Assembly (NCBI GenBank): GCA_963971425.1 | Contig: OZ020521.1 | Span: 26,738,012 to 26,802,011 of the forward strand | Direction of reading: 5' to 3' | Length of the DNA stretch: 64,000 nucleotides | Source of the DNA: Bryoerythrophyllum caledonicum | Lineage: Eukaryota > Streptophyta > Bryopsida > Pottiales > Pottiaceae | Shown here: one piece after another, positions 4,206 to 25,893 of the stretch | Layout: each line of letters begins with the position of its first letter | Numbering within the stretch: the first letter of the stretch is position 1 | Notes under the pieces: model-generated | What the model was told of the DNA's origin: nothing | Database searches by the model: none | What the model saw: the letters and a program-made list of their open reading frames with translations, nothing else | Made by a program: the position numbers and the translations under genes

Positions 4206-5341
4206 TGCATGGATTGTTTAATTACAATTGTGTTTGGTGGCCTAGCAGTACCATGTGGGTGATTTGGTAATACCATATGGGGGATTTAGAGATTTAGTGA
4301 TATTTAAGAATATCCAACTCCTAAAGCTCAGCCATGACTGATGGTTGATTTTTGATTGGGCATGTATTTTTTGGCATTGGTAGGGATTTTGGTACTATGT
4401 TTTGGCTTGGACTTTGGAGCATTTTGTTGAATGGGACAATATATTACTATTTATTTACTATCGTTCTTGTAAGCAAATCACTATGCATGTATAGATTTTT
4501 GGGCGGAATTTGTGTAAAGAATTTGTATATATAGATATTTAATAACTAATAAATTCTCTTCAAAATAACTCCCTAATTACTATGTAATCACTAGATGGTA
4601 ACTATGTAATTACTATATAATTATTCCAAGATCATTTATTTGATAACTAATAATTAGGTTTCATTAACTCAAAAATAACTAGAAAATAACTATTCAATAA
4701 TTATGTAATATCTAAATAACCACTAGAAAATAAGTATGGAATAAATATAAAACAACTTTATAACAACTAGTAAAAAGAGGATAATTGTGATGTAACTTTA
4801 CAAGTGCATGTAATCTATAATAAGGAAATATGTACTACAAAAAAGGTTATAAATGACTATGACAACACTGCAAAATATCTACAAAATAACTATATAGTGT
4901 GCTTGTAGATTTCATCCAATCAAATGCCTCCACGTATTAGCAAGTGGGTCCTAGAGGAAGTGACACATAAGTCACCACATATGATTACACGTCATCAAGG
5001 GAAACATGTCATCATCCACATCAACTACCACCTCAAAATCCACCTCCTTGTGAAATCCACGTCAATATCCACCTCAAATTCCACGTAACACTCAAATCCA
5101 TGTCATGAGCCACCTCGTCATTTCCCCGTGATGATGTTCCATATTGGCAAATGGATGAGAAATCTATATGGCAAAAAAAAACTACAGAAATCAATAACTC
5201 ACAACAATAAATGTGCCCGTTTCAAAAATTTCTTTGGTTATTCTTTGATTTTGCCTGTTTATTTAGTTATAGATTGCCCATCTGTAACTAAACAATGAGG
5301 AAAATCCCTAGTTATTTATCCCTGGATTTCTAGCAGTATTG

Positions 5342-5571
5342 ATCTCGCAACCATTGTGATCTGGGCTACAAGATTTGTGGCAGACCTCTTGATCAGAATT
5401 GTTGGGAGAGGAATTTTGGGATTGAGCATAACTGTTTTTTGAATCGCAACCTCTGGTGGCGTTCTTGCCATTGGGCTACCGCTGACTGCCGTAGGGCCGA
5501 CGCCTCTCTTTGAATCGTCGGTTGTACTTGAGCCTTCTGGTCTACGGCCTCCTCAGGATCCTTTGCTGCGG
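5342..5571 (-). pseudogene. copia gag C-terminal / zinc-knuckle region
   Basis: Minus-strand reading has a basic Arg/Asn-rich tract and a Cys/His cluster (CHKSCSPDHNGC) where the CCHC knuckle of copia gag is expected, though its spacing is degenerate. At 5575 the reading frame continues, across the 17-kb insertion, the gag frame that ends at 22704. This links the two copia halves. Confidence 0.65.
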
Positions 5572-5580
5572 GCAATTGCC
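5572..5580. repeat. Target-site duplication, left copy (GCAATTGCC)
   Basis: The nine bases GCAATTGCC recur at 22695-22703, immediately outside the right terminal inverted repeat. The target includes the palindrome GGCAATTGCC. The flanking copia gag frame is continuous when one copy is kept. Confidence 0.8.
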
Positions 5581-5617
5581 TATCGTCATTCTATATGTTA
5601 TGATTTTTGAAGGACAA

Positions 5618-5646
5618 AACACCATATTCGTTATATTGGGAGATTT
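5618..5646 (+). repeat. Left terminal inverted repeat of the 17-kb element
   Basis: It starts AACACCATATTCG and ends GGGAGATTT. It matches the reverse complement of 22666-22694 at 28 of 29 positions (G versus A at position 22). It is separated from the 9-bp duplication by 37 bases (5581-5617). Confidence 0.82.
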
Positions 5647-6250
5647 CCATGATTTTGAAGATATATGATCTTTGAAGTATCAATATATATAGACATTTGT
5701 AGGTGCAAAGCATATAGACAATGCACCAAGAATACTATATTCATTACATGGATGGACCAAATTAGCCGAATGTCCAAAAAAATTGGTAACAGTAAAGGAA
5801 GCATATACCATTATTCCAAAATGATTCAAACTTCATGAAAAAAAGTCACAAAGAACACTCATTTATCCCGAGGCAAAACACAATCGTCCTATCACTAATC
5901 AAATGGTCTAGGAAGTTCCGCCATAAGCCTCTATACGCGTCTTCAAAAAAGCCCTCTGACGTTGCCTAGTCCAAGTTGCGCCATTCTCTTGCATTAAAGG
6001 ACTCTCTAGAAGACGCTGCAAACCCCGCCTACGCACCTCGTCACTGTTTGATTTGGGCAGCGAGTGTCGACGGGTGGAGGAAGGAGAGCATTTGTCTCTA
6101 GTTGCATTTCCTGAGAGAATACAAGGGCGGAGACATTTACCAAATGGTTCCTGCACAATAGGCGCCACACACAATGCAAACAAATATACTTTAGGTCGAA
6201 TACTCCTACACATCACACATGAAAATTGTATCAATAAGATCCATCCTAGC

Positions 6251-6280
6251 GCACTTTAGGTCGAATGGAGCTAAAATGCA
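6251..6280. repeat. Element palindrome, copy 1 (3' of the FCP1-like gene)
   Basis: GCACTTTAG-type left arm and CTAAAATGC right arm around GTCGAATGGAG. A half copy (CTTTAGGTCGAATACTCC) lies at about 6190. Noncoding position. Confidence 0.7.
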
Positions 6281-6548
6281 GAAGGGAAGATCCACAGACA
6301 ACAGTTAACATCCAACAAATAAAAACAAAATCAAATGAACAAAAACTACATGAGTGCAATGTAGCTCAAAAGCAAACGAAAATTGCCTAGGTCAAAACGA
6401 CTCAAGAGTGCAATAACTTGGAGGTCAACATAACACGCACCGCGAGCGAGCATTGGAAAGTAGCATCCCTTAAACCGTCATAGAGAGTACGCTTTGCCGG
6501 AGTACAATTATCCGGATTCAGACGCGGGGACCCTGGAACTGAACGAGG

Positions 6549-8013
6549 TCACTGCGGCAAAGGTGAGTAGTTCCTTTCATGAATTGGCTCCCGTGCATTA
6601 GGGCTTTCGACAACTCCGTCGTCCACTGCCATGGTCGAATAAACCATGGTTGACCGCGCGGTTGCAGCAGAGTGCAACAAAAGTCCTTTATTCCGAAGGG
6701 AAAGGGCGAACTCCTCTGGGCCCAGCAAGGAATCCACGGAAGCCCGATAGTCACAGTCCTGTAGAATTTTCAACCGAAGTGACGCTCACATACCTCAGAA
6801 CAATAGATGAATACTCCAATCATTCAAAACAGGACGACATTCCATCAGCAGTAGGTATCCATTCCCCACAACAAACAAAGTAGTGAAACATCTCGGTTTC
6901 ATTTTATAAAAAAAAATATATACACGAAAAATGGTCCAACAAAATTTACTAAATAGAGCTTCAGTCAACCGATACAGTTTAGCTCTATCCGACCTAAAGT
7001 GTCACAAGCATCTAATCGTTTCCAACGGCATTAAGATCGGAGATTCTGAGACGCTTGGATTGCGTTCCAGATACTCGCAGACTGACGACACGTCTTCTGA
7101 TCATTATAGAACATCTCCCGGCCTGAGGGATGTTTGGCCCGGTATTGCGCTAGGCCACCCGAAACAGATGAAGGTCACAGAGATATGGCAGCAATTCCTC
7201 CAACAATACAGAATCATCTCTCGCGCCATCATGTTTGTGCGACCATGATGGAAGAAGAAGGACGTTCTCCAGCAAATTGAGCATATGTTTAATCGGGCTC
7301 TCGTCAATGACAAGCGTATTTGCCGGAGTATACTCATGACCCAACCTATTGAAGAGATGGTTCGATAAGGTCTTCAAGAAGATGTCCTTCTAAGTGCCAG
7401 ATTCCTTCATATAGATTGTTCTGCTACGACTCTACGCTCGGGAACCCTATCGCAACTCTCCTGACCAAAGATCCTGAGAGGGTACGAAGAACTATGCTGA
7501 AAAACATATTTACATATTTGACATGTTGTGGATTCCATCATCGAACTCTAGATGTGATGGTGGCAATCTTAGACAACCTCGTGAGGAATTCAGCACAACC
7601 AGGGCCCCCTCGGACTAGTTTAGGGCCTACTTCGGCCGGATGCAAAGCCGAGTGAATGGACGAGATAGAGTTCCTGGATCCCCTGGCCTGCCATGTTGGC
7701 TCACACGTGCATAAAATCCCATTAAGGTCCAGCACAACATTCAACCACCTGCCCTTGAAATCTAATAGGACTCTAGGTGTTTCTTCTAGATTACTGGCAC
7801 TACTTATTGATGCCTCGCAGACCTGGTTCAGAAACGCTAGGAGAACGAACAATATTACTAAAGATTCATTAACAACGACGAAGCAACAAAATGTAGAACG
7901 AAAAAGGCAAATGGGGGGGAGGCGTCATCGGGGGGGAGAGTGGAGTGTGAAAAGTGTTAGTAGAGTACCTCGAGAACTTCATCGTCTTGTTGCATTTCGT
8001 CTCGAACCTCCAT
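6549..8013 (-). pseudogene. FCP1/NIF-like HAD phosphatase, multi-exon, decayed
   Basis: Not a host-like intact gene. The likely start is the ATG at 8013-8011 (MEVRDEMQQDDEVLE, then a GT splice site). The next exons carry RWLNVVLDLNGILC (HAD motif I), PGCAEFLTRLSKIATI (FCP1-like helix), a GHEYTPANTLVIDESP segment (HAD motif III/IV, D-[DE]-SP) and SWSHKHDGARDDSVLLEELLPYL, the order found in FCP1/TIM50-type phosphatases. The last exon begins after TTCTACAG near 6758 and ends at 6549. In motif I the second catalytic Asp of DLDxT is Asn (DLNG), which should abolish phosphatase activity. There is an in-frame TAG (ESGT*KDIF) near 7390 and frame changes between exons. A palindrome lies in the intron at 6974-7002. 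Confidence 0.7.
6974..7002. repeat. Element palindrome, copy 2 (in an intron of the FCP1-like gene)
   Basis: ACAGTTTAG...CTAAAGTGT arms, separated by CTCTATCCGAC. It lies between the exon ending near 7150 and the exon beginning near 6758. Confidence 0.7.
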
Positions 8014-8294
8014 CGATCCCAACGAACCCTACATGGAGTCAAGGCGTTTCGAGTGCCCCACAACCATTTGGGGGCACGGTTCCAGCAAAATCACGATTGA
8101 TCTCATCTACGAGCAGGGCCAAAACTTAGATGATCCCTTCTACGACCGGGACTGCAGTTTGGACAACCTCTTCTATGACTGGGGGAGCGATTGCGTCATC
8201 ACCGACACTTAGATCTGAAAAAATTCAACAACTTCAACCTATCAACAGATGGGCACAAAGGACAGTGATACAAGTCAGAGTCGTCAGATGTCAA

Positions 8295-8323
8295 GCAGTT
8301 TAGCTCGAGTCGAGCTGAAGTGC
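8295..8323. repeat. Element palindrome, copy 3 (upstream of the FCP1-like gene)
   Basis: GCAGTTTAGCTCGA followed by GTCGAGCTGAAGTGC. It sits about 280 bp upstream of the presumed start codon of the FCP1-like gene. Confidence 0.75.
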
Positions 8324-8718
8324 TCGTTGAGCACTGTAATATTATCAAAAAATTCTGGAGTACAAAATTGGACATTTACAAAATGTTCTGCCTCTATACA
8401 CTCGCAACTACATTACACTAACCTGACAACGAGGTGGGGACATCTGTGATAGATATGTCTCGAGCGGGCGACTTCGGAGGGAAAGAGGGGCGGGTCGGCG
8501 GAGATGGGCGAACATGAAGCGATCGAGCCCCCATGGAGACGGGGAAGGAACCCGCCAGAGACGGTAGCAGCGAACCGCGGGACATACTACCGGTGTCGTG
8601 AAGGCAGTCAGTTGATGTTGTAAAAAGATAGAACAGAGGGAAAAATGAATGGTTAGGGCCGAAGGTGAAGACATGACTAGCGGATTCATCCTCAATTACA
8701 CAGTCATACTTCACCAAA
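8324..8718. other. Spacer with GC-rich stretch, no gene recognised
   Basis: A GC-rich tract at about 8455-8600 (GGGCGGGTCGGCGGAG) looks like a 5' leader or old coding sequence. Neither strand gives a protein I recognise. Confidence 0.4.
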
Positions 8719-8905
8719 CAGCATCTTTATCTTATCTTTACTGCATCTTGTCACTAGCTCAGGGCTTAGGAGCGTGCACCAACTGGTTTTCCTGCTACTT
8801 CTAGCAGTCCCCTGACCACGCATGCGCTAGCTGCTCTAACAAGCCAAGGAATCGAACCCGGACCGGCAAAGTGCTATGAAATGCTCAGCCAGCCGAACTG
8901 ACCCG
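8719..8905 (-). mobile_element. tRNA-derived SINE-like element
   Basis: On the minus strand a pol III A box-like stretch (TTCGGCTGGCTGAGC, 8883-8897) is followed 25 bases later by a perfect B box GGTTCGATTCC (8848-8858). It then continues for about 130 bp without a tRNA acceptor stem and ends in an A/T-rich AAAGATAAGATAAAGATG tract. That is SINE architecture, not a tRNA gene. Flanking duplications were not identified. Confidence 0.6.
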
Positions 8906-10080
8906 CCGTCGATGATAATACATGGGCTCTAATAATACTTAAGTCATTATCTAACATTTCTAAGATTAAAAAAAACCTAAACAGAGTATTATTGTATTTT
9001 TGTTTGTAGTAAAAGTAAGAAATGCTAGTGTTTAGAGTCAAATTAGAGGGAAGAAAATAGGGGCAGCTGCTTGTAGGCATTGTAGATAAGAGATAAGAGG
9101 GAACCTAGGCTTTTGTGGGAAGATATGGGCAAGGATTGGAGGTAAATTGACTTAGGTGACCAAACTTTGGTCAAAGAAGGAGGCTTGAAGGCGTGGGCTG
9201 ATGTTTATTTTTGACTTTCTTGCCCTTCTCCCCCTGCTCGAGCTCTTCTCCCCAAGACTACAAATAGCCTCAGATTTCTGCTTGTTTCATCGCGAGTTTT
9301 TAGAATTTGATTGTCAGGTTTTGGAGTGTAGTTCCTCTTGTTGTTAGCTTTTCAGTGATGTATCACACGCTCTAATCAGAGTCGTAGTGAAGCCATGGTG
9401 CAGATTTGAATGAAGAGGGGTTTAGAAATTGAGGCAGTAATGTATAAATACTTTGAAGGAGTGGTGTTTCGCGATCATTGTGAGTTTGATAGTGAGATTT
9501 TGAGGGTAGTATTAAAATTGTCTAAGGAAGATTGTGTTAAAATTTTAGATCCATTAGAACTATAATCTAAAAGTCATGAGTTAAATTGTAACCGGGGTTT
9601 TGAGAGGGATTCAAGGGCAGAACTTGGTATAAGGAAACTACGCTTTGGGAGATTATAGATAAAGTCTTTACAATTGATTTTTTGTGGAAGTGTTCTTTGT
9701 TATATGAGTGGCTTATGTACAAATTTTGAGATCTTTATCTGTAATAGAATAGGAGTGATGAAGAGTTGAAGTAAGGGGGGCCTGATATTAGAGGCAGAGG
9801 AGTTTGAGGCCATGGATCTTATTGAGAATTGATCCAATAATAGTGAAAATTGGTACATAGCTTTTTAACAAGATTATAAAGGTTGTGTCAAAATCCTAGA
9901 ATCATTGGACTTGTAGATAGAAAGTTATGTGAAAATTAGTGGTGGGATTTTTAGGGGCAGCGTTTGAAGATGGGAACTTCTAGATTAAGAGTGTTATGAA
10001 GATAGACTAGAAGCAAAAGAATGGCAAAGTAGCCATTTTTTATGTTTGTTGAAGCCATACATACAAGATAAGTCTTGCAA
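8906..10080. other. AT-rich spacer inside the 17-kb element; possibly an old LTR-type insertion
   Basis: No coding region recognised. ACTACAAATAGCCTC near 9260 resembles an LTR TATA region. The stretches near 9535-9625 and 9885-9970 are weak direct repeats of each other (TAGA.CATT..ACT...A). No ends could be defined. Confidence 0.3.
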
Positions 10081-10938
10081 TTAACTACCTAAATGCAAAA
10101 AAGACCATGTGTTTCCTAAAGCAAAGTTTCTCAACACCACATCGGCCCCTTCTTCCGCTGAGAGGGGAGGCTGGGGAATCGCAGTATTTACTGCGGGTGG
10201 TGTCGCAGCGGTAGTAGGCAAATTAATCGACATGAATTCGTGCATCATGAGTATGATGTCGGCATGCCTCTGATCTTGGTCCCTCTTCATTTCTTTGTCA
10301 CGCCTCCGCTGAAGATCCATGAGCTCCTGGTCACGCTCCGCCAGCCGCTGCTCCATCAACCTCATCCGGGTGGCCTCTTCTTTGAGCTTCTTCTCAAGGG
10401 AGATCAACGTGTTGTCGTCTTGTGCACTGCTTGACGTAGCCAACGGAGAGCGGCCGCTTGCGCTAGCGACTTTCCTCTTCTTGGCAGCTGACCGAGCAGA
10501 TGACCTGCCCAAGGTGGGAGCTAAATGAGGCCTGTCGGAAATCTCCAGAGAATCCAACTCCGGGAGGTCGAGTCGTTGCCACGAGGAAACGATTGTGTCT
10601 CCTACTTCAGATTGAGAGGCACTCTGAAACTCCGGCGGAGTGGCGGTACCAAAATCGTTATGGGACTTTTCATCCAGAGTGGCCGTGCTCGAGCTCGAGC
10701 ACTCAACCAGGGCGCTCGGTTTGTCATCTTCCTCCTCATCGCCGAGCTCAACAATTGCTTTTTCTTTCTCCTCGGCAAGGCCTCTCCAAGCTCGGGAAAG
10801 ATCTACGCGTTGACGCGATACGCTAAAACATCGAAATCGACCCGATCCAACGTCAACGCGACCTCCATGGCGTCGTCGAGGTCCTGCTTATCGCCGATCG
10901 GTGTCGTGGGAGATGCAGAACGCCTCCAGATCCAACAT
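10081..10938 (-). pseudogene. Basic, coiled-coil protein exon(s), probably the 3' part of the ParB-like gene
   Basis: The exon appears to start after a good acceptor (TTAGTGTGCAG, 10939-10949) with MLDLEAF, shifts frame twice, then stays open from about 10800 to 10081. Visible features: an acidic Ser-rich stretch, a nuclear-localisation-like AAKKRK cluster, and a charged heptad-like helix (KKLKEEATRMRLMEQRLAER...DLQRRRDKEMKRD) typical of a dimerising coiled coil. No enzyme motif. It could be a separate accessory gene of the transposon, or the C-terminus of the protein encoded at 11222-14263. The intron between them contains three palindromes. Confidence 0.5.
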
Positions 10939-10964
10939 CTGCACACTAATGGATTTAACAAGCA

Positions 10965-10992
10965 ACACTTTAGGTCGAATCGAGCTAAAATG
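10965..10992. repeat. Element palindrome, copy 4 (intron)
   Basis: ACACTTTAGGTCGA followed by ATCGAGCTAAAATG. It lies just upstream of the acceptor site at 10939. Confidence 0.75.
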
Positions 10993-11089
10993 AATACAAA
11001 GGAACACTAATACGATAACTTAGATATTACAACTTAAAAGGAAACGACGCGATTGATGGCTGCAAGAAAATCATATAAGTATAAGCCGA

Positions 11090-11116
11090 CACTTTAGCTT
11101 AAGTCGAGCAAAAGTG
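11090..11116. repeat. Element palindrome, copy 5 (intron)
   Basis: CACTTTAGCTTAA followed by GTCGAGCAAAAGTG, in the intron between 10939 and 11222. Confidence 0.75.
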
Positions 11117-11183
11117 CCACGCTACACAAGCATAAGAGTCGACATCTCTGAAACAATCCATGCACAGTCAGAGAGGGTATCAA

Positions 11184-11210
11184 CTGTTTAGCTCGAGTTG
11201 AGTTAAACTG
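11184..11210. repeat. Element palindrome, copy 6 (intron, just after a 5' splice site)
   Basis: CTGTTTAGCTCGA followed by GTTGAGTTAAACTG. It starts a dozen bases inside the intron, whose donor (GTAAGT) lies at about 11221-11216. Confidence 0.75.
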
Positions 11211-12669
11211 TAGGAAACTTACCACACTCGCAATCAGTAATTTTGTCCCGCCAAACAGTTGAACAACTGCCTCCCCCCTCTTGTAGAACAGCTCCAGGAC
11301 CTTGATGAAGAACTCCATCCTCAGCTCGTTCATGTTCATGGAGTACGCCAGCTCGTTGTACTTGCACAACTTAGTGTGCAATACATGCTTCGGAGCTGCG
11401 TAGGTTTTCTTCACAGCCGGGATCTGTGTAAGCTCTTTCTTGAAGAGAAAAAGGAGGCGAATAGGGTCGAGAACGTTGTTTCTCTTTGGCACGTATCCTC
11501 CGAAGCGCTCGTTCTCGGAGGGAAGTTACTTCGACTGCAGCACATAGTACGCATGGCACAATGACAGGCCCTGAGCAAACGCTGTCACTTGAAGGTGTGA
11601 CTGCTCGTCGCCGCAAATGAAGAGCCATGTTGGAAGATCGGTGAGGGGAGGCTGCCCTTTTTATGCGAATATCGTCATGAACTCGTCGAAGAAGGGCCTC
11701 TCCAACGACGACGTTGCCTTCCCAGAGAAACCAGAGACATTCCGGAAGTCGATGTTGCCGAGCTTCACGTTGCCGCCCATGTTGCGCCACGAATCCGAAG
11801 TCCACGTCCCGAGCGAATTCATTGTTGCCTTGTACGAACGAAAGTGCAGGGCTCCCTGAGGTGGAACGAACCACGATCGCACATCGATGAAGACTCTGAA
11901 GAACTCCTTAGCATATGGAAAGAGATCTTCACATTTGCAGTTGCGAAACTGCGTCTACCTCGAATCCTTGTAGTACGAATCCGGTGGACCCCAATCTTGG
12001 AGGGCACGCTTCGATGCCTTGTTGATGTTGTAGTTCTTCTTAAACGTCCGCCAGCTGGAACGACTGTACGTTCCAGAGCTGTTGAAGAAGGCCAGCTCCG
12101 GCCTGATCAATTCAAGCTCTATCCGAGCGACCTCCTTCCTCTTCCTTCGATCGACCCAATCCCTGGCGCTGTAGCAATCCTCCAGCACAAATTGCGACTG
12201 CTTCACAACCACCATAGCATAAGGTAGTTCCCGCGATAGCCTTGATCGATTGAGAATGTGCTTACACATTTTTGCGTGATCAGCCTCGGTCATGTTGCCG
12301 AAATACTTGAAGAACTCGCACGTCAGAACCCCATCCTTCTCAGGCATCCAAGACTTGGCGTCCTTAAACTTTGCCAAAGGCATCGATGTCGAATTGACGT
12401 TGATGAGGTTGCCATGCGCCGCCAAAGAGATGACATCGGACCAGAGCTTGAAGGTCTCATCGGACGAGGTGATGATCTTCACCTCGTTGGTAATAGAAAG
12501 CTCCTTCGCCTTTCCGGCTTTCTTGAGCACTGCTTGGCTCTTAGCAACGTCGATCATTGCGAAGCGCTCATGAACGGCGTTAAGAAATGGGTGCGCAAAA
12601 CATAAACAAGGTTGATTGAGTTTAAAATTAAAGCAAAAAACTAAACATGTTTAGTAGGGTCCAACAACT

Positions 12670-12698
12670 GCAAGTTAGCTCAAGTCGAACTAACTTGC
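12670..12698. repeat. Element palindrome, copy 7 (intron of the ParB-like gene)
   Basis: GCAAGTTAGCTCA and GAACTAACTTGC arms. The outer bases differ from other copies (AAGTTAG for AGTTTAG), but both arms changed together, so pairing is kept. Confidence 0.75.
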
Positions 12699-12763
12699 AA
12701 CCTTAGAGTAGACAATGAAAGCGATTTTAATCTAAACACAACAGAATACAGATATAGAGCAAG

Positions 12764-12798
12764 CATGCACTTTAGCTCGACTCAAGCTAAAGTGCATG
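12764..12798. repeat. Element palindrome, copy 8 (intron of the ParB-like gene)
   Basis: 35-bp inverted repeat, arms CATGCACTTTAGCT / AGCTAAAGTGCATG, about 20 bases inside the intron donor at 12819. Confidence 0.8.
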
Positions 12799-14328
12799 AC
12801 CTTAGTTAAGATAAATTACCTCAAACCTCTTGTCATTGGCAATCTCCAACGCCGTTCACCATCCTGACTTGTGAGACCCGCGAGCGCCTGTGGCGGAGTG
12901 CTTTGGCATTGGTCTCCTAGCTTGGATCCACAAAGTACGTGAGCCGAGGATATTCGTTGCCCACGTCGGCTTGAACTGGACCAAGTGATTCACGCGATTA
13001 TAATACGCGGAAATCTTCCTCAGCTTCTCCGGATCCTTCGTCTAGACAATGTAACACAACCAAGCTCGGAAGTGCCTTCTCACCTTTGGGACGTTGCCGT
13101 TGATCATCTCCTTTGATGCAACAACGCTGTGCAGGCCGTTGATAATGTAGAAGTCGCAGTCGCTGAGCTCCTCAACAATCGTCGGCATAGCATCGAGCTT
13201 TGGCATGACGTAGAGAGTCTGCTTATTCGTCTTGTCGGGCATTTGGAGGTAATAATGCTTCAACTCCTCCATACCCGAGGTTCGAATGCACGGATTGTCC
13301 ACTCCGGTGGTGCATTATGCAACCTCATCACGTCAAGCTCGATCTTCATCTCTCTGTCTCCTTTGAAGAAGCAGCTCTGACACTCTGTCCAGAATTTTTG
13401 GTAAATCTGTTGGACGTTGTTGTAGTCGATTTCCTCTCCGAACCCGAGCATCGAAGGGAGCTCCGAGAGTGCAGAGGCCATCGAATTGGCCAACTCCTCC
13501 TCTGATACGAGCTTTGTCTTCTTCCTGGAAGAGGTCTCCGGCTTCTTGGCAGCTGAGCGCTTCTTGACGGGAGAAGCAGATAGAGTGTTGTGTAGGGTGC
13601 TTCAACTTGTTCTTGCACCTGGTGTTCTAACCGGTAGTGACGCTTGACTTATATCCTGGCTACCGGTCACGGCCCCCAAAACCATTGAAATTTCTACCGG
13701 GCGTCTTGCCGCGATATTTTTTGCCTTATCTAAAGTAGCAAAGGTACTCATTCTTGATGGAATGACGCGGAGTCTATTAGCTACAGCCTTTGCTTTCAGC
13801 GGCTGACCGCTACTAGTCTCCCATTTCTTTAGAGAGATTTCGTGGTCGACCTGAGCCACTATTTCATCAAACTTGGACCCCCTGAGTGATTCGACTAAAT
13901 CGTGGATACTGAATGGAGATGAACTATTGTCCACTACAATAGTAAACAAATACGACTCTACGGACTCAGTGGTTGTCTCACACAACAACTTAACGTGATC
14001 GTTATCTTCGTGGACTACATCAGTAGTTTTGGTCTTGAAGACGGTGTGCTGGGGTACAACGATATCACCAGCGAAGGTCTGACCAAACACTAGATTATCC
14101 GTGTAGGTGGCCCACGGAAGCGTCCACTTCAGTGTCATTGATGGGTCCTTCTTCTCCCAGCAATCCAAGTGGTTATTGTCATCTCCATCGTCATCATCAA
14201 TGTCGACGGGCTTTGGCTGGAAGAAGTGCTGCAGCTAAGTCACCATCCTGTCCCTCTCAGATCTGCACACATACGAGATCGATTAAACATATTAGATTGC
14301 TGCATTGATCATCCGATTAGGATGGAGA

Positions 14329-14364
14329 GGTTACACTTTAGCTCCACTTGAGCTAAAGTGTAAC
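14329..14364. repeat. Element palindrome, copy 9 (upstream of the ParB-like gene)
   Basis: Perfect 16-bp arms GGTTACACTTTAGCTC / GAGCTAAAGTGTAACC around CACT. It sits upstream of the acceptor TGTGTGCAG at 14264. Confidence 0.85.
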
Positions 14365-14504
14365 CGATTACAAGTTTGTTAATAATACTCTTCATTAAAA
14401 TTGAATCATTTGGAGAATGCCACAGACACTTTCAACCAATTCATGCGTACTTCTCGTTCAACTCTCAGAACTGTGGAAAAGCTTACCTACATTTAGTGAT
14501 GGTG

Positions 14505-14542
14505 CACACTTTAAAGTTTAGCTCTAATAGAGCTAAAGTGTG
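14505..14542. repeat. Element palindrome, copy 10, with conserved flank
   Basis: CACACTTTAAAGTTTAGCTC / GAGCTAAAGTGTG, preceded by TTTAGTGATGGTG and followed by a T-rich stretch and CACTTC. The same extended unit recurs at 16080-16260 and 22020-22230. Confidence 0.75.
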
Positions 14543-14633
14543 AATTTTTTCTTTTTATTTCACTTCATTTTGCTTTAGTATGTTAACCTTTAGTATATTT
14601 GCTTTTACTGTAACAATACAAATAGTGTAGTTA

Positions 14634-14887
14634 GAGCATCTCCACCAGTGACAGGGAATTTTCCACGCCAACAGGAGACGTGCCCTAGTTTGAGATGATG
14701 GGAGAGGGGTCACCCTTTCCCTCCCGCACCCGTACTGGAATTGGCCACTCTAGGGGAACGTCAGCGCTTGCCATTTTCGCCGTAGTTGGCCCATTTTTCT
14801 TTAGGTTTCTATTTTCTTTTTAATTCCCTCGTGTCATTACATGATTGGACACAATCTCCCGGACCCTCTGCCCCGGTGGAGATGCTC
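14634..14887. mobile_element. PIF/Harbinger-type MITE
   Basis: 254 bp with 14-bp inverted ends GAGCATCTCCACC / GGTGGAGATGCTC. It is preceded by TTA (14631-14633) and followed by TTT, consistent with a decayed TTA duplication. It lies in the spacer between the divergent genes of the 17-kb element. A diverged relative with TTA on both sides is at 32587-33035. Confidence 0.65.
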
Positions 14888-14959
14888 TTTTTCTAGTACA
14901 CTATTTATCAACAAGTTGACAATTAGTTTTAGCCGCCATTGTCATTATTATTATCCTTC

Positions 14960-16075
14960 ATTTGTCCACCTATTGCAATTCATTTTGTATTAGCCCTCAA
15001 TCGAAACCCTACCCTACCACACAAATTTGTTACTTCATAAATAGTGTTAGCTGCGAATCTTCTGCCAACCGGTCGCCATGCATTTATTCTTCTTGTCTCA
15101 TCTTCAACCTCAAATTCTTATCGCCTTATTCAAAACTATTCTCATTATTTTGTCTTGCATTTCTATTACATTATTTAGGAATATCTAATGAATATTTAAT
15201 GTGTAATCATATTTTTAGACAATAACTAATGACTTTGTAATGATTATTTATAAAATATTTAATGTCTATTTGTATATCTGTAATTTTTATGAACAGTTAA
15301 AGAATATTCAAATATTATTTAATGAATCTTTAGAGTTTTAAAAGTATATTTTATGACAATTTCATTAATTTTTGTATATTTGTATATTTAAGGATTATTT
15401 ATAGAATATTTAATGTATCGATAATGAATAGTTAATGAATAGTGCATAAATTTCTAATGTAAAATCAATGTGTATTGGCATATTCAATGAGTATTTAATG
15501 AATATTTACTGAATATTCAATGCACATTGAATGCAAATGTGATGGATATCTAATGAGTATTTTTTTTGTATTTCTATATTTATTGTATGTTTAAGTTTTT
15601 CCCTTCTCCAATATTCCTTTCTTTTCTCACTTTCGTTTCCGAAAGAATGTTCTTATTTTTCCAATCTTCTACTTGAAATTTCATTTTTCCTTCATATGTA
15701 TATTATACTTTGTCCAATTTTTGAGACTTTCCTTTTGCTTCATACCTACGTCCTATTATTCCTAAGCTCTTTCTTGCAAATTCTTGTTTTTCTACATGCA
15801 TTCAACCCTTCTTTACTTTGATGCTCGAGATGTAACCAAATCATTATTAAGGTTTCATACAGTAACTGTCCACAAGTAAAAAACTTTATGTTCCACTATT
15901 TACTAGGATTGACATTTAGTGTAGTAGTTGACATTTAGTGTAATATAATTTTGTCACTACACTTATTGTAAATTTTACAACTAGTGTATGGTTTCCTATT
16001 TAGTGTCCACTACACTAGAAGCCATCTTTTGTGTATTGGAGCTACATAGTGCAATTTTGCTTTCTAATCCACTCC
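14960..16075. other. AT-rich intergenic stretch with AATGAATATTTAATG-type microrepeats
   Basis: Between about 15180 and 15560 variants of TAATGAATATTTA recur a dozen times. No open frame of note on either strand. Central spacer between the two divergent gene blocks of the large element. Confidence 0.45.
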
Positions 16076-16079
16076 ATTT

Positions 16080-16260
16080 AGTGATGGTGCACAATTTAGC
16101 TCTAGTAGAGCAAAACTCTGCAAGTTTTCTTTTTAGTTCACTGCACCTGGTGATGAGGCACACGTTCGCACTACTGGAGCTAAAGTGTGTGCACACACTC
16201 CTTTTAGTTCATTCCTTGTAGTGATGGGGCACTCCTCTGCTAAAATCCAAGCTGATGTAT
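16080..16260. repeat. Tandem palindrome unit block (about 70-bp period)
   Basis: Two to three degenerate copies of TTAGTGATGGTGCAC + palindrome + TTTTTAGTTCACTGCAC. Palindromes lie at 16090-16120 and 16159-16190 (GGAGCTAAAGTGTG arm intact, left arm eroded). A third, mostly lost, is near 16228. Confidence 0.7.
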
Positions 16261-17590
16261 GTGCAATGTGTATTTCCATTTCTTCAAACAAACATTTTGA
16301 ACTCAAACTTCTCTTTATGGTTAAGTATTTCAGAAGGTGAAATAAAAATCTTTTAATTTCAAAAGAATTTCAAATTATGTAGACCTAAACCTCCAATAGT
16401 AATATTAAAAAGCAAAAAAATATGACAATCTCCTAGTCTTCAGTGCATATGAAGTATAAGTATTTCTGATACCCTAAATCAATAATATGTGACAATGTGT
16501 GAAAATGTATTATTTGGGATATAATCTTATTTGGCACTAAGAAAAATAACATGTTTTTCCACAATATCAAACATTCTAATATTACTTCTATGTATTGGAA
16601 ATATCACATTCCATAGTGTGTCATAGCAAAAGGTTTTTAAATTGCTCGGCGTGCCAGCAATGAAGAAGTTCCTCTTCTGGCTAGCATAACTTTTATTGAA
16701 GACGTTCAATGAGAAAATAAATTACTTATGCCTCATGTCTTCTTTCATCCTTCTACAAAATTTTGAGAATTTGAAATATAATTTGCGACCACATGAACGT
16801 GCTCATAAACTTATTATTCTTTTTTGCATGTATAAAATTAAAAAATTACTTATATTATGATCATTAAATTATGCTTGATGCACTAAGTAATACACTTTGA
16901 ATAAGTTATATTTTCTATTTTGATTATCCTTTTTTTGTTATGAGGAGGTCATTTCATTTCTTGTTTAAATCTTTTAATATTGTTCCACTCTCTATGATTT
17001 ACAAATGACAAAGTCTTTAATATCACGTCAAAACATGAAATAAATTGTGTATGGTCAAGAATTCCTCCATCTTTCATGTCATGCTTAGATTGTCACACCC
17101 TAAACTCATGATAATACAATTTGAACTAAAGAATAAGATATTTTAATCCAACTATTAGTTTGCGCACATTTTCGGTCTTTGAGTACTTAGTGGATAGGAA
17201 CCTGTTTCAATTCCAAATCCAGACCATGGGGACACTTGGGATTCTTGCAAAAAAATAAACATTCTAAGTTGATTACAAAATAGTAACATTATGCACATTT
17301 TTATAACCCCAAAGAAATTATGTCCAAAGCATGTTTGAATACATACTTTTTTGCTCAAAATACAAGTGCACATATAATATGTTTTTTTCTTTTTTCTAAT
17401 GCTACTCGTTTGTTAAGGTCTTCGCTTTCAACATAATAGATAAGTCCTATTTGGATTGTAATACAAATTCTTTCTAATCATCTCAATATCTTCTCTACAT
17501 TTCCCTATACCTTAGTTGAATCGTCAGTATCATGAATCTTCAAAGTATTATTAAATTGAAATGAAATGACATCAGAAGATTCCACCTATA
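16261..17590. other. AT-rich spacer, no gene recognised
   Basis: Low-complexity AT-rich DNA. The short open frames on both strands look random. Confidence 0.4.
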
Positions 17591-17596
17591 TCAAGG

Positions 17597-17848
17597 ACCC
17601 TAAACCCTGAACCCTAAACCTGAACCTAAATTCCAAACCCTAAACCTAACCAAAAACCCTAACCCTTAGCATTACCCTAAAACCGTGTATATTATTCGCA
17701 TGTGCGAGTATATTTGAGGTAGGACTCTTCCTTATTTTAGTCAACCGGAAAATAGTTGATTGAGTTTCCCGCTGAGATTTCGAATTTGCAGTTTTTCAGG
17801 GGCTGTGGAAAAGTTTCCTCCCGCCAATTCTGAAGTTTTCTCCCGCCA
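17597..17848 (+). promoter_or_regulatory. Presumed promoter of the DUF7869-type gene: telo-box cluster plus E2F-like sites
   Basis: A cluster of CCCTAAACCC / AACCCTAA telo-box motifs (17597-17682) is followed by a canonical E2F-type TTTCCCGC (17765-17772) and two CTCCCGCCAA copies (about 17818 and 17840). In plants, telo-boxes and E2F sites are combined in promoters of S-phase genes. The role here is inferred from position, about 1 kb upstream of the start codon. Confidence 0.4.
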
Positions 17849-18294
17849 ATTGTGAAACAGTCGTGTGTCCGTTAGTGACCTCACCGATCCTCGAAAACTT
17901 TTATCATTTTTTCCTTCTCACTTTGGTTGCTGTGCAAGGTTGTTGTAGAGAGGCTTGGAGGTAGTACAACTGTCGGAGGTTGAGGAGGGCAACATCTACA
18001 GGTTGTGCACGGTTGAGCAGGGCGCTTGCGCGAGGCAACAACGCACCGGTGGTCTTCTTCGTAAGGTACACAATGTATACTTCTTGCATTCTCTGTGCAC
18101 TCTAGCAATTAGGATGTGACTATGTTTAGGGTTATTGCGCTCGTTCCAGTTGCTACTATGATTTTGAAGCATCAATGTGAGTATCTTGACGACTAACCCA
18201 AAGATTTGGGTTGTAGTATACAAAGAGGCAGATTCATAGGCTGAAGAGTTTTTCCATATGAATCCCGAAAATGACGCCGAGAATCACGGAAGGG

Positions 18295-18606
18295 CAGTTT
18301 AGCTCGACTCGAGCTAAATTGTCCTCGGATATAAGATAAGGCAGTTTAGCTCGAGTCGAGCTAAACTGTCTTTGGAAATATTGTAAGACAGTTTAGCTCG
18401 ACTCGTGCTAAACTGTCCTTTCATAGTGTTAACGACAGTTTAGCTCAAATCGAGCTAAACTATCATACCTTATTTTTCAAGGACAGCTTAGCTCGACTCG
18501 AGCTAAACTGTCATACCTTATTTTCTATGTTTGTTTACCTCGACTCGAGATAAATTGTCATACCGTCCAATAGTCAACATTTCAGGTTGGGTTGGGCTAA
18601 AATGTC
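18295..18606. repeat. 47-bp-period array of 27-bp palindromes
   Basis: Seven copies start at 18295, 18342, 18389, 18436, 18484, 18533 and 18580 (spacing 47-49). The first five have arms CAGTTTAGCTCGA / TCGAGCTAAACTG; the last two are eroded. Linkers share a T..TACCTTATTTT flavour in later copies. Two more half-copies (18688, 18767) follow. The array ends about 280 bp upstream of the DUF7869-type start codon and could lie in its leader or a leader intron. Confidence 0.9.
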
Positions 18607-18889
18607 ATTGTCAAGGATGAGATTATTTCATATTCGGATTAAAACTAATCGCATGAAATTGCATTCTTGTCATATAATACCACATGTGTTTACCTCAAGT
18701 CGAGCTAAATTTGTTTGTTCTACAATGTCAATTCAGTTGGTTGCAAGTTCTTTTCAAGCGCCAAACCTTACCTCGATTCGGGCTTAATTTCCCACTTCAT
18801 ATGCTTCTTCATTGATGTCTATTCCTACAAGGTATTCACCCATTCTTATTTGGCAGGATTATTTAATATTTATCTCATTGAAATGCAGG

Positions 18890-21722
18890 ATGTCGTCTTC
18901 GGAGGGCGACGATGATCATGTTGACGCTCCCGTGAACCCAGAACTTCCTGAGTTTGATGTTATTCCTCGCCGTCTTTGGGTCGGGATGACTGTTTTGCTT
19001 CACAATGGTTCGGGTGTTTGCGTTGCGGAGGGGTTCGTTCGCAATGTCCGATCTAGTGCAATTCTAGGTTCCTCTGTTCCTCTTCGGGATTCGAATGTTG
19101 TAGTACAAGTGTCAAGTACTTTTGTTCAGGAGGAAGCTCCTGATGAATGGAGGTACTCGTTTAAGTCCTGGCCAATTCAAGAAGTCTTTTTAAACGGTGT
19201 GAGTCTCTTCTATCATTGCCTTAGGGACGTTTACAATGTCTGGTTGGTTGAGCGTAACGGACCTCTAGGTGGGAGCTCCCGTTCATACAAGAATTCCTAA
19301 AGGAATACTCGTCCAACAGTGTCCAGGAATGTTGAATTCCTCATGACCCCTCATTCCATTAACACTGTTGCGAGCAATAGTTGTTGCAGTCAAAACTCTG
19401 TTCAACGCTACCCTAGAGATAAAATGAAAGCCCTCCAGACGCGCTTGTACAGTGAGACCATTGTGTAGTTCAGAAATCATATCAAACTCGACGTTCATCG
19501 ACAGTTTCATAGAAACTCTACGGGTATGGAGGTTGTGACCCTAGAGGGTGTGGACGTTTGTGCCCATGCGTGGATGAAAATCATGGGTGTGAGTTCGAGT
19601 ACTTTCTATCGGAATGCGAAGGACGCTGCTGCTGGTCATGCGGCTCAACACCATGGGAATACCGGTTTGCGTAAGCCTAGAGGTCATACGGTTGTGGCTA
19701 CTGCTGCTCTTAGAGCGATCCTCGATAGACATGCGGACCACATGCCTCATAGGTCTCGTGTTCTCCCATCTGGCGAGAAGGCTGTGGCAAAGGTCCTTCC
19801 GACAAGTTTTAAGTGGAAGGATCAGATACCGCTTCTTGATGATCATCTCGTTGATTGTGGATTGCCGCCAATCTCAACCTCAAGCTTGAGTAAGATTCGG
19901 CGACTGAGCTTCCCCGAGTACTATGCCAAGAAAGGTGGAGACAACTTTGCCCGTTGTTCTACGTGTGACAAATACCAGGATCACAAGAAACTTACTCAAC
20001 CTGGAACACAAGCATCACTGCTATGGCAAAAGAAAATGCAGGTTCACATTGATTCTGCTTTCGCACATCGCGACTTGTACTATCATAACCGATTTCAATC
20101 AAAGTCGTCGCCCCAGGAGGTTCTAACCATCATGCATGATAAGATGGATCACTCAAAGACCGCCTCCCCGGTTTTTTCACATAAAACAAAGCACTTAGAT
20201 GGGCTTATGAAGTTGCCTCTTGCCGTCACAGGCATGTTTGCCCATGGTCATGTGGACCAGCATTACGCCCATTACGGCCTTGATTTATACTCCCATGATG
20301 CCAATTACACGGTCGGGTCGTTCGCAAAACTATTGCGTGACCTGGAGGCGCCTCCGAAGTCATCTTCCCAGCAACTCTTTCCAAAATCTAGTTCTCATCC
20401 ATTGTATGCGGCGGTATTACAGGGTGCAGAGATGTGTTTGGATCCATTAGGGCAGATTCCAGATATCCCAGTTCCAGAGAGGTCTTTGCCTCCTATATTG
20501 AACGTACAAATGGACAATGTTGTTGGTGATAACAAAAATAGTTTTGTTTTCTGTTTTTGGTCTCTCTTTGTTGCAAAACACATCTTCCGCGAAGTATATG
20601 TTAATTTTATGCTAGTTGGTCATACACATGATGATATAGATGCATTATTTGGACGTTGGAGTATGACGCTGAGGAAGGAGAGTTTTCCAACCATTCCTTT
20701 GCTCATGAGGTCGTTCATGAAAAATGAGAGTGTTCCCTCAATCCCGCATCTCATCCAAGAGGTTTCTGACTTTAAGAAGTTCATTAAGGATATGATTGCG
20801 GACGGTGATGAAGCTTTGCAGGGTCATACAAAGGCTCATCAGTTCAAGTTTTATGTGGACTCTAGTGGTTGTCCGGTAATGAAGTATAAAATCCTTTGTC
20901 ATAATGAGGATTGGCTTCCTAAGGGGTGAGAAGGTAGTGGAATCAAATTGTGGAAGGAGGATTCTGAACAAAGGTCTTTATGGCCTCGCGGAGAACCTGA
21001 TGCATTGAAGCCTTCTACGATGTGGCATCTCCAAGAGGTGGTGAAGGGACTTTCAGGATTCATCGATCACTGGGAGCGATCATCGCGGGAGTCTGTTGAA
21101 GCCCGATCGCGTTTTGAGCCGCTATCGTACTATTGGCACGATGTTAGAGATGCTCTGACACTTCCAATGGATATGCTGATATCATTGGAAGACGGCTTTT
21201 GGCCAACGACGCGAATTGCCCATGCCATTGAAGATGAGTTCTCAGCGGAGGGTGAGGTTCGTGAGGAGTACCGTAAAGATGAGCATTTTGTTGGCCAGAG
21301 ACGCGATCGTCCACCTCCTTCTTTTAGAGTTGGTTGTGATTTTTTTTGCTGGCTACTTTGTTGCATTGCGGCCTTGTGATGGAGACGAGCGCCCATTTTG
21401 GATTGCTCAAGCAATTTCAGATCCTAACTCTAATCTAGATATGCCAAACACTGTCCGTATCCAATTCTGCTGCCTTATATCGCGCGATCGGGATGTTTTG
21501 AAGTTCTACATAGATTGGGATACAGATTGCAACCTTCGCTGGACAATTGAAAAGGGAATAGCCATAACGTGGGAGAGTACCGATTCAATCTTGACAGCAT
21601 GGAAACCTAGGTCTTTAAAAAGGGATGGAGGTCATGTACAAGATTCAACTACAAAAATTCCAAAGGGGCAAGTAGCGATTATCAAGGCCTCCTTGGAAGC
21701 ACTTGCCAGGTCCGAATCGTAA
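18890..21722 (+). pseudogene. DUF7869-type transposase-like protein (about 943 codons), inactivated
   Basis: One continuous reading frame from the ATG at 18890, interrupted by TAA (19298), TAG (19466) and TGA (20927), plus one extra base in a T8 run (21340-21347). Homology-like signal continues unbroken through all four. Features by residue from M1: a conserved N-terminal region, CSTC zinc-type pair (356-359), LNVQMDN (Asp 542), GHTHDDIDALFGR (577-589), and a C-terminal GYFVALRPCDGDERPFWIA, like a BAH/Tudor-type barrel. QMDN and GHTHDDID are hallmark motifs of the DUF7869 family. I infer an RNase H-like transposase fold; the acidic residues fit, but no structure was checked. This is the best candidate for the mobility protein of the 17-kb element. 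Confidence 0.75.
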
Positions 21723-22037
21723 TAGACTTAGATCAATGGACTTTCCTTTTCCTAGATTTTGGATTCTGATGCGTAATACTTCATGTAGTATGGTTAGATC
21801 CTTTGGTGTTGAGATTATAGATAATATTTGTATTTAATTTACACTCTGTATGACTATAATATGTGATGCCAATGATTGCTATGAAATATTCTCTCCATTA
21901 TTTTTGCGTATCGGTGATAATTTGCAGTATGTTTTATTTTCTTTTTTAAATAACAATGTGGTAAATTGCTTTTAATCTTGAAACCAATAATACCAGTAAT
22001 TGCCTTCATGGTGGATGATAGAAAGTAAATGTTGGTT

Positions 22038-22213
22038 CACACTTTAGCTCTAGTGGAGCTAAAGTGTGAGCAAATCTTCGTTTTTAGTTCACTGCACTTA
22101 GTAATGGTGCGCACTTTAGGTCAAGTGGAGGTAAAGTGTGTGGAATTGATTTTTTGAGTTCATTGCACCTCTAAGTGATGGGGACACTTTAGTTCGAAGA
22201 AAACTATTGTGTG
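22038..22213. repeat. Right-hand palindrome block (3 units, about 73-bp period)
   Basis: Palindromes at 22038-22068 (perfect arms CACACTTTAGCTC / GAGCTAAAGTGTG), 22111-22140 and 22183-22213 (eroded). They are separated by TTTTTAGTTCACTGCACTTAG-like spacers identical in kind to those at 14490 and 16080. Located 3' of the DUF7869-type gene, about 480 bp from the right end of the element. Confidence 0.85.
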
Positions 22214-22665
22214 TGCAACTTTTTTTCCACTTCTAAACACCATCATTTGAAACTCGTTACACATTTTTTTAGCCAATGTGTATTCCACAAGGTAAACTAA
22301 AATTCTTTAAATTAAAAAAAGGACTTATCAAAATGTGCTTAGCTAATTCTGTTACAAGTGGATATTTGTCCGTCATTTAGCTCACTTTTAGCTAACTTGG
22401 AGCATGCGGTTAATCCTAGTTAGTAGAATCAAGTGTGAATACAATGAACACATGTGGTATAAAAGAAATGTCGACTAATGTGTTCTTCTTTTTAATATTA
22501 TAGTTAGATTCGTAATATACTGTTATGTGTAGTACTTATTTTTCTAGGGATTTTTGTAGTGAACATTACCTCCCAATTTAATGGAAACTCATATCCCTTT
22601 ACATTGTAGAGTTTAGATGTGCACTTTAGCTTTTATGATCTACATGTGTTAATTTGGGAGTCGCT

Positions 22666-22694
22666 AAATCTCTCAATATAACGAATATGGTGTT
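22666..22694 (-). repeat. Right terminal inverted repeat of the 17-kb element
   Basis: Reverse complement begins AACACCATATTCG and ends GAGATTT; 28 of 29 identical to 5618-5646. It directly abuts the duplicated GCAATTGCC. Confidence 0.85.
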
Positions 22695-22703
22695 GCAATT
22701 GCC
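22695..22703. repeat. Target-site duplication, right copy (GCAATTGCC)
   Basis: Same nine bases as 5572-5580. Inside copia gag, where CAA TTG C completes a codon with the left flank. Confidence 0.8.
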
Positions 22704-23256
22704 AGCCATCTTCTTGGAGTAGAAAAGATTCTAACTTTGAGAATGAGACTTGTTGTTCTCTGACAGAGATGAGTTCACAAAAAATTGACCAACTATCGGG
22801 GAGTCTTATAAGAACTCTATCAATGAGTTATTTGTCAGATAACGTAACATTGATATTTGCCAGTTGTGCTACCAAGGAGCTAATGTTTGTGAGATGTTTG
22901 TCTATACTTTGTTTGTCAGACATTCTCATATTATATAATTGGGTTTTTAGGGCTAGCCTCCTATTGATTGATTTGGATTCATTTAGGGTGCGTAATTTCA
23001 TCCACATTTGTCTAGGATAGCTAGAGTGCTTGATATGAGGAAGGAGATAATTCTTAACTGTAGATACAATGATACGCATTGTCTTGGTTTTTTGCTCTTC
23101 TAGCCGTTGCCGATCTTCTGCAGTGGATGTTGATATCTTTCTCTTACCGTGATCAGCAACAACGTTTGTTCCAGTGGCGATCAATGATTCACCGACATCA
23201 AATTCGGTGGTGGTGATCTCTTGTGATATGGTTGTCTTTGCAGTGGTTGGGTTCAC
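22704..23256 (-). pseudogene. copia gag N-terminal part (UBN2/retrotran_gag-like)
   Basis: A Met at 23256 opens a frame with the copia gag pattern: MWMKLRTLNES, LALKTQLYNMRMSDKQS, KHLTNISSLVAQLANINV, then after one in-frame TAA (22828-22830) LIDRVLIRLPDSW and SKLESFLLQED. It is cut at 22704 by the 17-kb element and continues at 5571. Confidence 0.8.
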
Positions 23257-23839
23257 TAGATACTAGAGACATTCACCTTTCAATGCCATACTGATCTTGA
23301 AAGACCATAGTGAGTAATTGTTGATCCCCTTGAGGCTTAGAGCTTTCGAAGATGTCTCTGCTTTGCAAAACCGATTCCATTTGGACTAGTCTTTGAGCAA
23401 TAGCAGATACGTGTAAAATGAACAAGTAGATAACAAGTGATTAAACTTGGTTGATTTGATTTGATGCAATGCACTTGATGGTTGATGATGTTGTCGTGTT
23501 GCTGATGGCTAATGTCGGATCGTTGCACCTCGTGTAAATAAAATCTAGTGGGCGTCGGGAAGGATGGAGCGTCTGATGGCGCAACGTCGAGAGTGTTGAA
23601 GTTTGATCGCAGATAGATCCGTAGCTATTGTTAGGTACTATAATGGTAGCCGTGATATCTGTAGACTATTGTACCTACAAGGAGTGTTCGACATGATGGG
23701 TGACCTAACAATTGATAAGTGTGGGAGGGACTCGATCAAGATCTAAGTGAACTGAGTTGAGTATGATTACTTAAGTGGGAGAAGAATTAATCACATAGAG
23801 AAGGTGCGGAGGTGGAGAGCAAGATTGCTCTAAGAGTGT

Positions 23840-25840: not shown

Positions 25841-25893
25841 GAGAGTTTGTGTTTCGAATTTTGGCGCCAGGGTTTGTGCTAGAGGTAGCGAAG

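Follow-up and report, generated by a model that had tools for sequence, protein, structure and literature searches.

A decayed copy of a giant, probably Sola-type DNA transposon inside a copia gag gene of the moss Bryoerythrophyllum caledonicum

A 64,000-nucleotide stretch of contig OZ020521.1 of Bryoerythrophyllum caledonicum (assembly GCA_963971425.1, forward-strand positions 26,738,012 to 26,802,011; hereafter, the window) contains a copia gag gene interrupted by some 17 kb of other DNA. The question is what this insertion is, where it ends, and what its three gene blocks and numerous palindromes do. The inserted element is decayed and belongs to a family of giant DNA transposons with many copies. 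According to the reading favored here, with a probability of about 70%, this family transposes by cut and paste, is Sola-like in its mode and probably Sola, and is equipped with proposed helper genes and with palindromes as proposed binding sites; the copy in the window is broken. To our knowledge, plants seldom have autonomous DNA transposons that measure 17-20 kb, carry conserved accessory genes, and reach high copy number.

The boundaries follow from other copies in the genome. An earlier annotation made from the window alone (the original prediction) placed the element between 5581 and 22694, with 29-bp inverted ends and a 9-bp duplication at both junctions. The inverted ends are present (29 bp, 97% complementary), and the left one starts 37 bp inside the boundary at 5581. 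In a search of the genome (437 Mb, 894 contigs) with end probes, the 120-bp left-end probe (5581-5700) gave 1,272 first-look candidates, of which 40 places, including the window, were scored; among the 39 others, 38 matches begin at query base 27-38 and 1 at base 12. Outside AACACC, the flanking sequence differs between the loci read and is unrelated. As for the right-end probe, all 40 scored places (window included; of 571 candidates) match over the full length, up to the final base. Thus, the element extends from 5618 to 22694. Copies ending elsewhere, the outcome that the original prediction had itself named as speaking against it, were indeed found for the left end, whereas its right end at 22694 stands.

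Sixteen other copies were examined, 12 of them with both ends within the fetched stretches. All 12, representing 10 distinct sites, have an exact 4-bp target site duplication (TSD), and none has a longer one. The duplicated sequences are TAAT, CATG, CTGC, ATAT, ATTG, TTTG, ATTG, ACTT, TGGT, and AAAA, the last in 3 copies with shared flanks, and their exactness in every case suggests recent insertions. The termini AACACC...GGTGTT are common to the window and the other copies; next to the window copy's own ends stand ACAA (left) and GCAA (right), which agree in 3 of 4 bases. The copies on contigs C843, C839, and C2 (at 2.95 Mb) appear to be a single insertion, present on duplicate contigs or within a larger duplication, since their flanks and TSD are the same. 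At 5.1 Mb of C14 there is a truncated or rearranged copy with the right end of the family, the transposase, and 8 palindromes, and with no left end within 20 kb. Short derivatives were also observed: a 163-bp element resembling a miniature inverted-repeat transposable element (L004:273-435) has nearly identical inverted ends and a 4-bp duplication TACA, and a similar one, with the duplication ATGT, is nested in the C2 copy at 2.95 Mb.

According to its 4-bp TSD (12 of 12 copies; 3 of 4 bases in the window copy) and its terminal inverted repeats (TIRs), the family resembles Sola, and Sola1 of Physcomitrella in particular. Sola elements are described as having DDD transposases, 4-bp TSDs, and TIRs of variable length, with some members longer than 15 kb and with occurrence in Physcomitrella (PMC10741241, PMC9033089). 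The available parts of these descriptions, however, mention neither three gene blocks nor 23-36 palindromes per element. The original prediction knew of no named plant superfamily for such an element; in terms of TSD, putative transposase type, size, and moss occurrence it is probably a large, cargo-rich variant of the Sola type, matched to Sola by description. Other superfamilies were rejected on their features. Mutator (MULE) elements have TSDs of 7-12 bp (PMC10741241), whereas all 12 copies here have 4 bp; Zisupton (KDZ) has 8 bp and hAT also 8 bp (5-8 bp), while EnSpm/CACTA has 5'-CAC..GTG-3' termini with a 3-bp TSD (PMC12730594), none of which agrees with AACACC..GGTGTT and a 4-bp TSD.

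The three gene blocks reported in the original prediction are confirmed, and their order is identical in all four copies compared (the window, C843, C11, and C866). The 951-codon DUF7869-type protein of gene 3 is likely the transposase, with the other genes as accessories, as the original prediction had proposed; this gives DUF7869, an uncharacterized Pfam domain, a likely role. Of 4,461 candidate places for the transposase in the genome, 91 were scored. Each of these has at least 92% identity, and for 67 of them no stop is listed in the matched part, as judged by eye; the 91 include some copies repeated on duplicate contigs, and the count concerns the transposase gene alone. Aspartates at 224/227, 349, and 389/391 (window frame numbering) are invariant in 43 of 43 rows, one of them the window frame and the other 42 drawn from the 120 relatives that were listed out of 307. 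Also among those listed is A9U683 of Physcomitrium patens, with 57% identity; in this list, as in that of the 58 relatives of the gene 2 methylase-like part, P. patens is the sole named source apart from entries labeled cyanobacterial. The ratio of nonsynonymous to synonymous divergence (dN/dS) of the transposase is 0.18-0.28 for C866 against the window, C843, and C11. Its structure model is too poor for a fold call and the search with it gave no usable information; the absence of RNase H-like transposases from the fold list carries no meaning. PDB sequence searches with the transposase and with gene 2 gave no convincing match. A literature search, which did not cover most subscription papers, found no mention of DUF7869 and no description of such an element.

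Among prokaryote genome contigs, 1 of 31 pattern matches proved to be a relative, and among viral contigs none of 67 did. The single relative (L068) lies on a contig whose record names an uncultured cyanobacterium; it has a transposase with 80% identity and the same palindromes, and plant DNA has probably found its way into that bin. Compared with C866, its transposase has a dN/dS of 0.11, at a synonymous divergence (dS) of 1.35.

Gene 2 combines a ParB-like motif, a methylase-like part, and a coiled-coil-like tail. The motif INGQHS alone hints at ParB; no ParB family is among the profile matches of 34 gene 2 members at E up to 1. As for the methylase-like part, the model of the C866 copy has the permuted methyltransferase fold. 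The usual catalytic motif of amino-methyltransferases is [DNS]PP[YFW], typically DPPY; it is absent at the strand taken as its counterpart in the 53 rows aligned, where D, F, and R occur in 52, 48, and 51 rows, respectively. Gene 2 thereby differs from beta-class DNA amino-methyltransferases (CcrM, M.BceJIV, and MboII) and from MTA1/METTL3, both in this D-F-R in place of DPPY and in its fusion to the ParB-like motif and the coiled-coil-like tail. PADLOC, PHROGs, and NCBIfam yielded no clear family for gene 2; one window piece matches PglX in PADLOC (E = 0.018), and Pfam N6_N4_Mtase matches 1 of the 53 members of the methylase-like set (E = 0.029). Gene 2 has relatives in 58 other sequences (26-66% identity), one of them from Physcomitrium; the relative of the methylase-like part in Physcomitrium patens is A0A2K1ISM0 (43% identity), and in the Physcomitrium protein P0169 a tail of similar appearance, as seen by eye, follows on the methylase-like part within one chain. 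For the same three comparisons with C866, dN/dS is 0.11-0.22 in the long exons and 0.45-0.48 in the last exon. The dS values between pairs of these four copies are about 0.4-0.6 in the gene 2 long exons versus 0.11-0.16 in the transposase, and this difference in synonymous divergence suggests that modules have been swapped between subfamilies.

Gene 1 encodes a NIF/FCP1-like HAD protein. Its C866 copy is an open stretch of 284 codons that matches PF03031 well above the cut-off of 21.8 bits (67.5 bits, E = 1.4e-18), while the window piece alone, which has 2 stops, stays under it (15.9 bits, E = 0.011). The dN/dS of C866 gene 1 against the other three copies is 0.19-0.27.

Palindrome sites were counted where at least 19 of 26 consensus positions match, with a looser set at 18 or more. 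The window element has 23 sites, in line with the approximately 20 seen in the original prediction; none occurs in the 46,868 bases that make up the rest of the window, and none arose when the element was shuffled 50 times with its dinucleotide content approximately preserved. The copies C843, C11, and C866 have 35, 32, and 33 sites, respectively, and those on C839 and C2 have 35 and 36. In C866, the sole copy tested in this respect, 31 of the 33 palindromes lie outside long open stretches, and the remaining 2 overlap the margins of a single open stretch, where they probably fall in introns. The four copies and L068 together provide 100 distinct sites, in which 40 cells have an alternative complementary pair (mean 17.8 and maximum 30 in 1,000 shuffles), a count that related sites inflate. 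Identity between copies is 0.86-0.90 in the palindromes versus 0.76-0.78 in the 40 noncoding bases flanking them on each side. L068 has 5 sites, one of them a perfect palindrome, although only 93 of 8,787 other noncoding C866 positions align to it.

In the favored reading, the DUF7869 protein would bind the AACACC ends and, as a DDD-type transposase, would excise the element and reinsert it with a 4-bp stagger, of which the TSD is the observed trace. The proteins of genes 1 and 2 would act as conserved helpers, and the 23-36 palindromes are candidate binding sites of one of the element's own proteins, in all likelihood that of gene 2, which might keep the element active by anti-silencing, as VANC does for VANDAL, or gather its distant ends. 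By analogy, the conservation of the gene 2 protein together with the palindromes suggests a self-directed system. In VANDAL/VANC of Arabidopsis, too, an extra protein borne by the transposon acts via short motifs in noncoding parts (PMC5735166), but VANDALs are MuDR-type (PMC12730594), and here the motif is a 27-bp palindrome and the candidate protein methylase-like. DNA transposons of fungi that carry TET/JBP (KDZ and others) likewise have a DNA-modification enzyme traveling with the transposase; however, Zisupton has 8-bp TSDs, the enzyme is a dioxygenase rather than of the amino-methyltransferase fold, and the hosts are fungi (PMC12730594).

A more specific version is tentative and rather doubtful: a Sola-type transposon with its own sequence-specific chromatin system, whose ParB-like/methylase-like/coiled-coil protein loads on two to three dozen palindromes. 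Just as doubtful is its corollary that the protein keeps the element unmethylated or bridges its ends, allowing a transposon of almost 20 kb to attain high copy number. Should the methylase-like protein indeed target the palindromes, plants would have, next to VANC, another anti-silencing or partition-like system of independent origin. Mosses are easy to transform and hence suited to testing such a system. Two findings weigh against these proposals. The palindromes are kept no better than the element overall, with identities of 0.85-0.89 in the remaining noncoding DNA and 0.88-0.89 in exons, and genes 1 and 2 have stops in 3 of the 4 copies compared. For these reasons, the chromatin system and the favored reading itself were rated lower, and palindromes without a protein partner and passively carried cargo were rated higher.

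That no protein partners the palindromes, and that they are just hairpin repeats that copy themselves or signals for internal transcription, is a real possibility, albeit one that falls short of being probable. Tandem palindromes are spaced at about 47-53 bp, hairpin-mediated repair would produce symmetric change as well, and conservation no higher than in the rest of the element is also in keeping with such an origin. In contrast, their spread over the entire element, largely outside the C866 long open stretches, and the recurrence of the core in L068, where so little other noncoding sequence aligns, speak against it.

The left junction of the window copy is a separate matter, being either a repair scar or the product of a double event. 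As the original prediction stated, GCAATTGCC is found at both junctions, and these are its 2 occurrences on the plus strand of the window. The copia gag frame is continuous once the flanks are joined with a single copy of GCAATTGCC; joined by the 4-bp rule, it has the same phase but contains a stop. Since the phase is the same under both joins, it does not by itself decide between them. All 3 related copia copies fetched, chosen from 149 other gag matches, align across the site without the element, which supports, at the family level, the predicted nested insertion in copia gag, as judged from these alignments. Their gag proteins, however, are only 58-62% identical to that of the window, so the alignment does not fix the exact ancestral site, and in it the joined window sequence shows a 7-base gap close to where the flanks meet. 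The 37-bp filler and the 9-bp repeat are probably a scar left by repair, either at this insertion itself or after one end was cut at a later time. Somewhat unlikely is a succession of two events, in which an earlier small insertion or repair in the copia gag left the repeat and the filler, and the transposon later inserted into the second of the two repeats, making an ordinary 4-bp TSD, GCAA, whose left copy has since mutated to ACAA. The single-base difference between ACAA and GCAA is consistent with this succession, and the 7-base gap hints at a disturbed site; however, it requires two independent hits at one place, and relatives so distant leave it without an exact ancestral site.

As for the cargo, it is improbable that the three blocks are not one functional unit and that host genes were captured passively, with the transposase alone mattering. 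NIF-like HAD genes are ordinary plant genes and capture of host pieces is common in transposons, both of which count for passive capture, as do the stops in genes 1 and 2. Against it stand the constant gene set and order in the four copies, dN/dS far under 1 for both genes, and the gene 2 relatives in the 58 other sequences, one of them from Physcomitrium. Genes 1 and 2 would rather be conserved cargo or helpers beside the transposase.

Finally, a mobile unit that spans 5581-22694 and duplicates 9 bp of its target, Mutator-like or of a new 9-bp superfamily, is very improbable: an exact 9-bp repeat bounds this interval, the gag frame crosses one copy, and a chance 9-bp match within 60 bp has a probability of about 2e-4, but the left-end match starts with unrelated sequence outside them and the 4-bp TSDs in 12 of 12 copies rule out both the 9-bp rule and the end at 5581, and the 37-bp filler is absent from every other locus fetched for flank comparison. 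A near-match of the filler at C1:15641554 was discarded, as the filler and the real left flank of that locus disagree at 18 of 37 bases. The misleading 9-bp duplication is hence replaced by the family's 4-bp rule.

Table 1. Coordinates of the element, its genes, and its insertion site in the window.
Feature	Position	Strand	Basis and remarks
Transposon proper	5618..22694	.	17,077 bp; inverted ends, end matches, boundaries set by other copies
Left TIR, AACACCATATTCG...	5618..5646	+	Inverted-repeat search and other loci
Right TIR	22666..22694	-	Inverted-repeat search and other copies
9-bp direct repeat GCAATTGCC, left copy	5572..5580	+	
9-bp direct repeat GCAATTGCC, right copy	22695..22703	+	First 4 bases, GCAA, occupy the expected place of the 4-bp TSD
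37-bp filler between 9-bp repeat and true left end	5581..5617	+	Outside the family's element
Interrupted copia gag, 5' part	22704..23262	-	Frame and related copia copies
Interrupted copia gag, 3' continuation	5316..5580	-	Frame and alignment
Gene 1, NIF/FCP1-like HAD protein, broken	7022..7924	-	Limits approximate, transferred from C866
Gene 2, first long exon, ParB-like INGxHS motif	12817..14234	-	Broken in window copy
Gene 2, second long exon, amino-methyltransferase-like fold	11225..12575	-	Modeled on C866; broken in window copy
Gene 2, last exon, coiled-coil-like tail	10081..10930	-	By eye and weak Pfam matches only
Gene 3, likely DUF7869 transposase, intronless	18890..21722	+	Window copy: in-frame stops near 19298, 19466, and 20927; frameshift near 21345
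24 dispersed 27-bp palindromes, type CACTTTAGCTCGAnTCGAGCTAAAGTG	6252..22211	.	At least 18/26 positions; 23 at 19/26 or more

Three further observations concern the surroundings. The gag search also found a regular array at G000:C3:5527005-5563505, in which twelve frames, each of 185 aa and with weak resemblance to copia gag (25% identity), follow one another at intervals of exactly 3,291 bases. In the window, a run of 200 N at about 59.95-60.15 kb is an assembly gap, and a 426-aa plus-strand frame at 25849-27129, near the nested insertion, resembles a plant DUF506-type gene.

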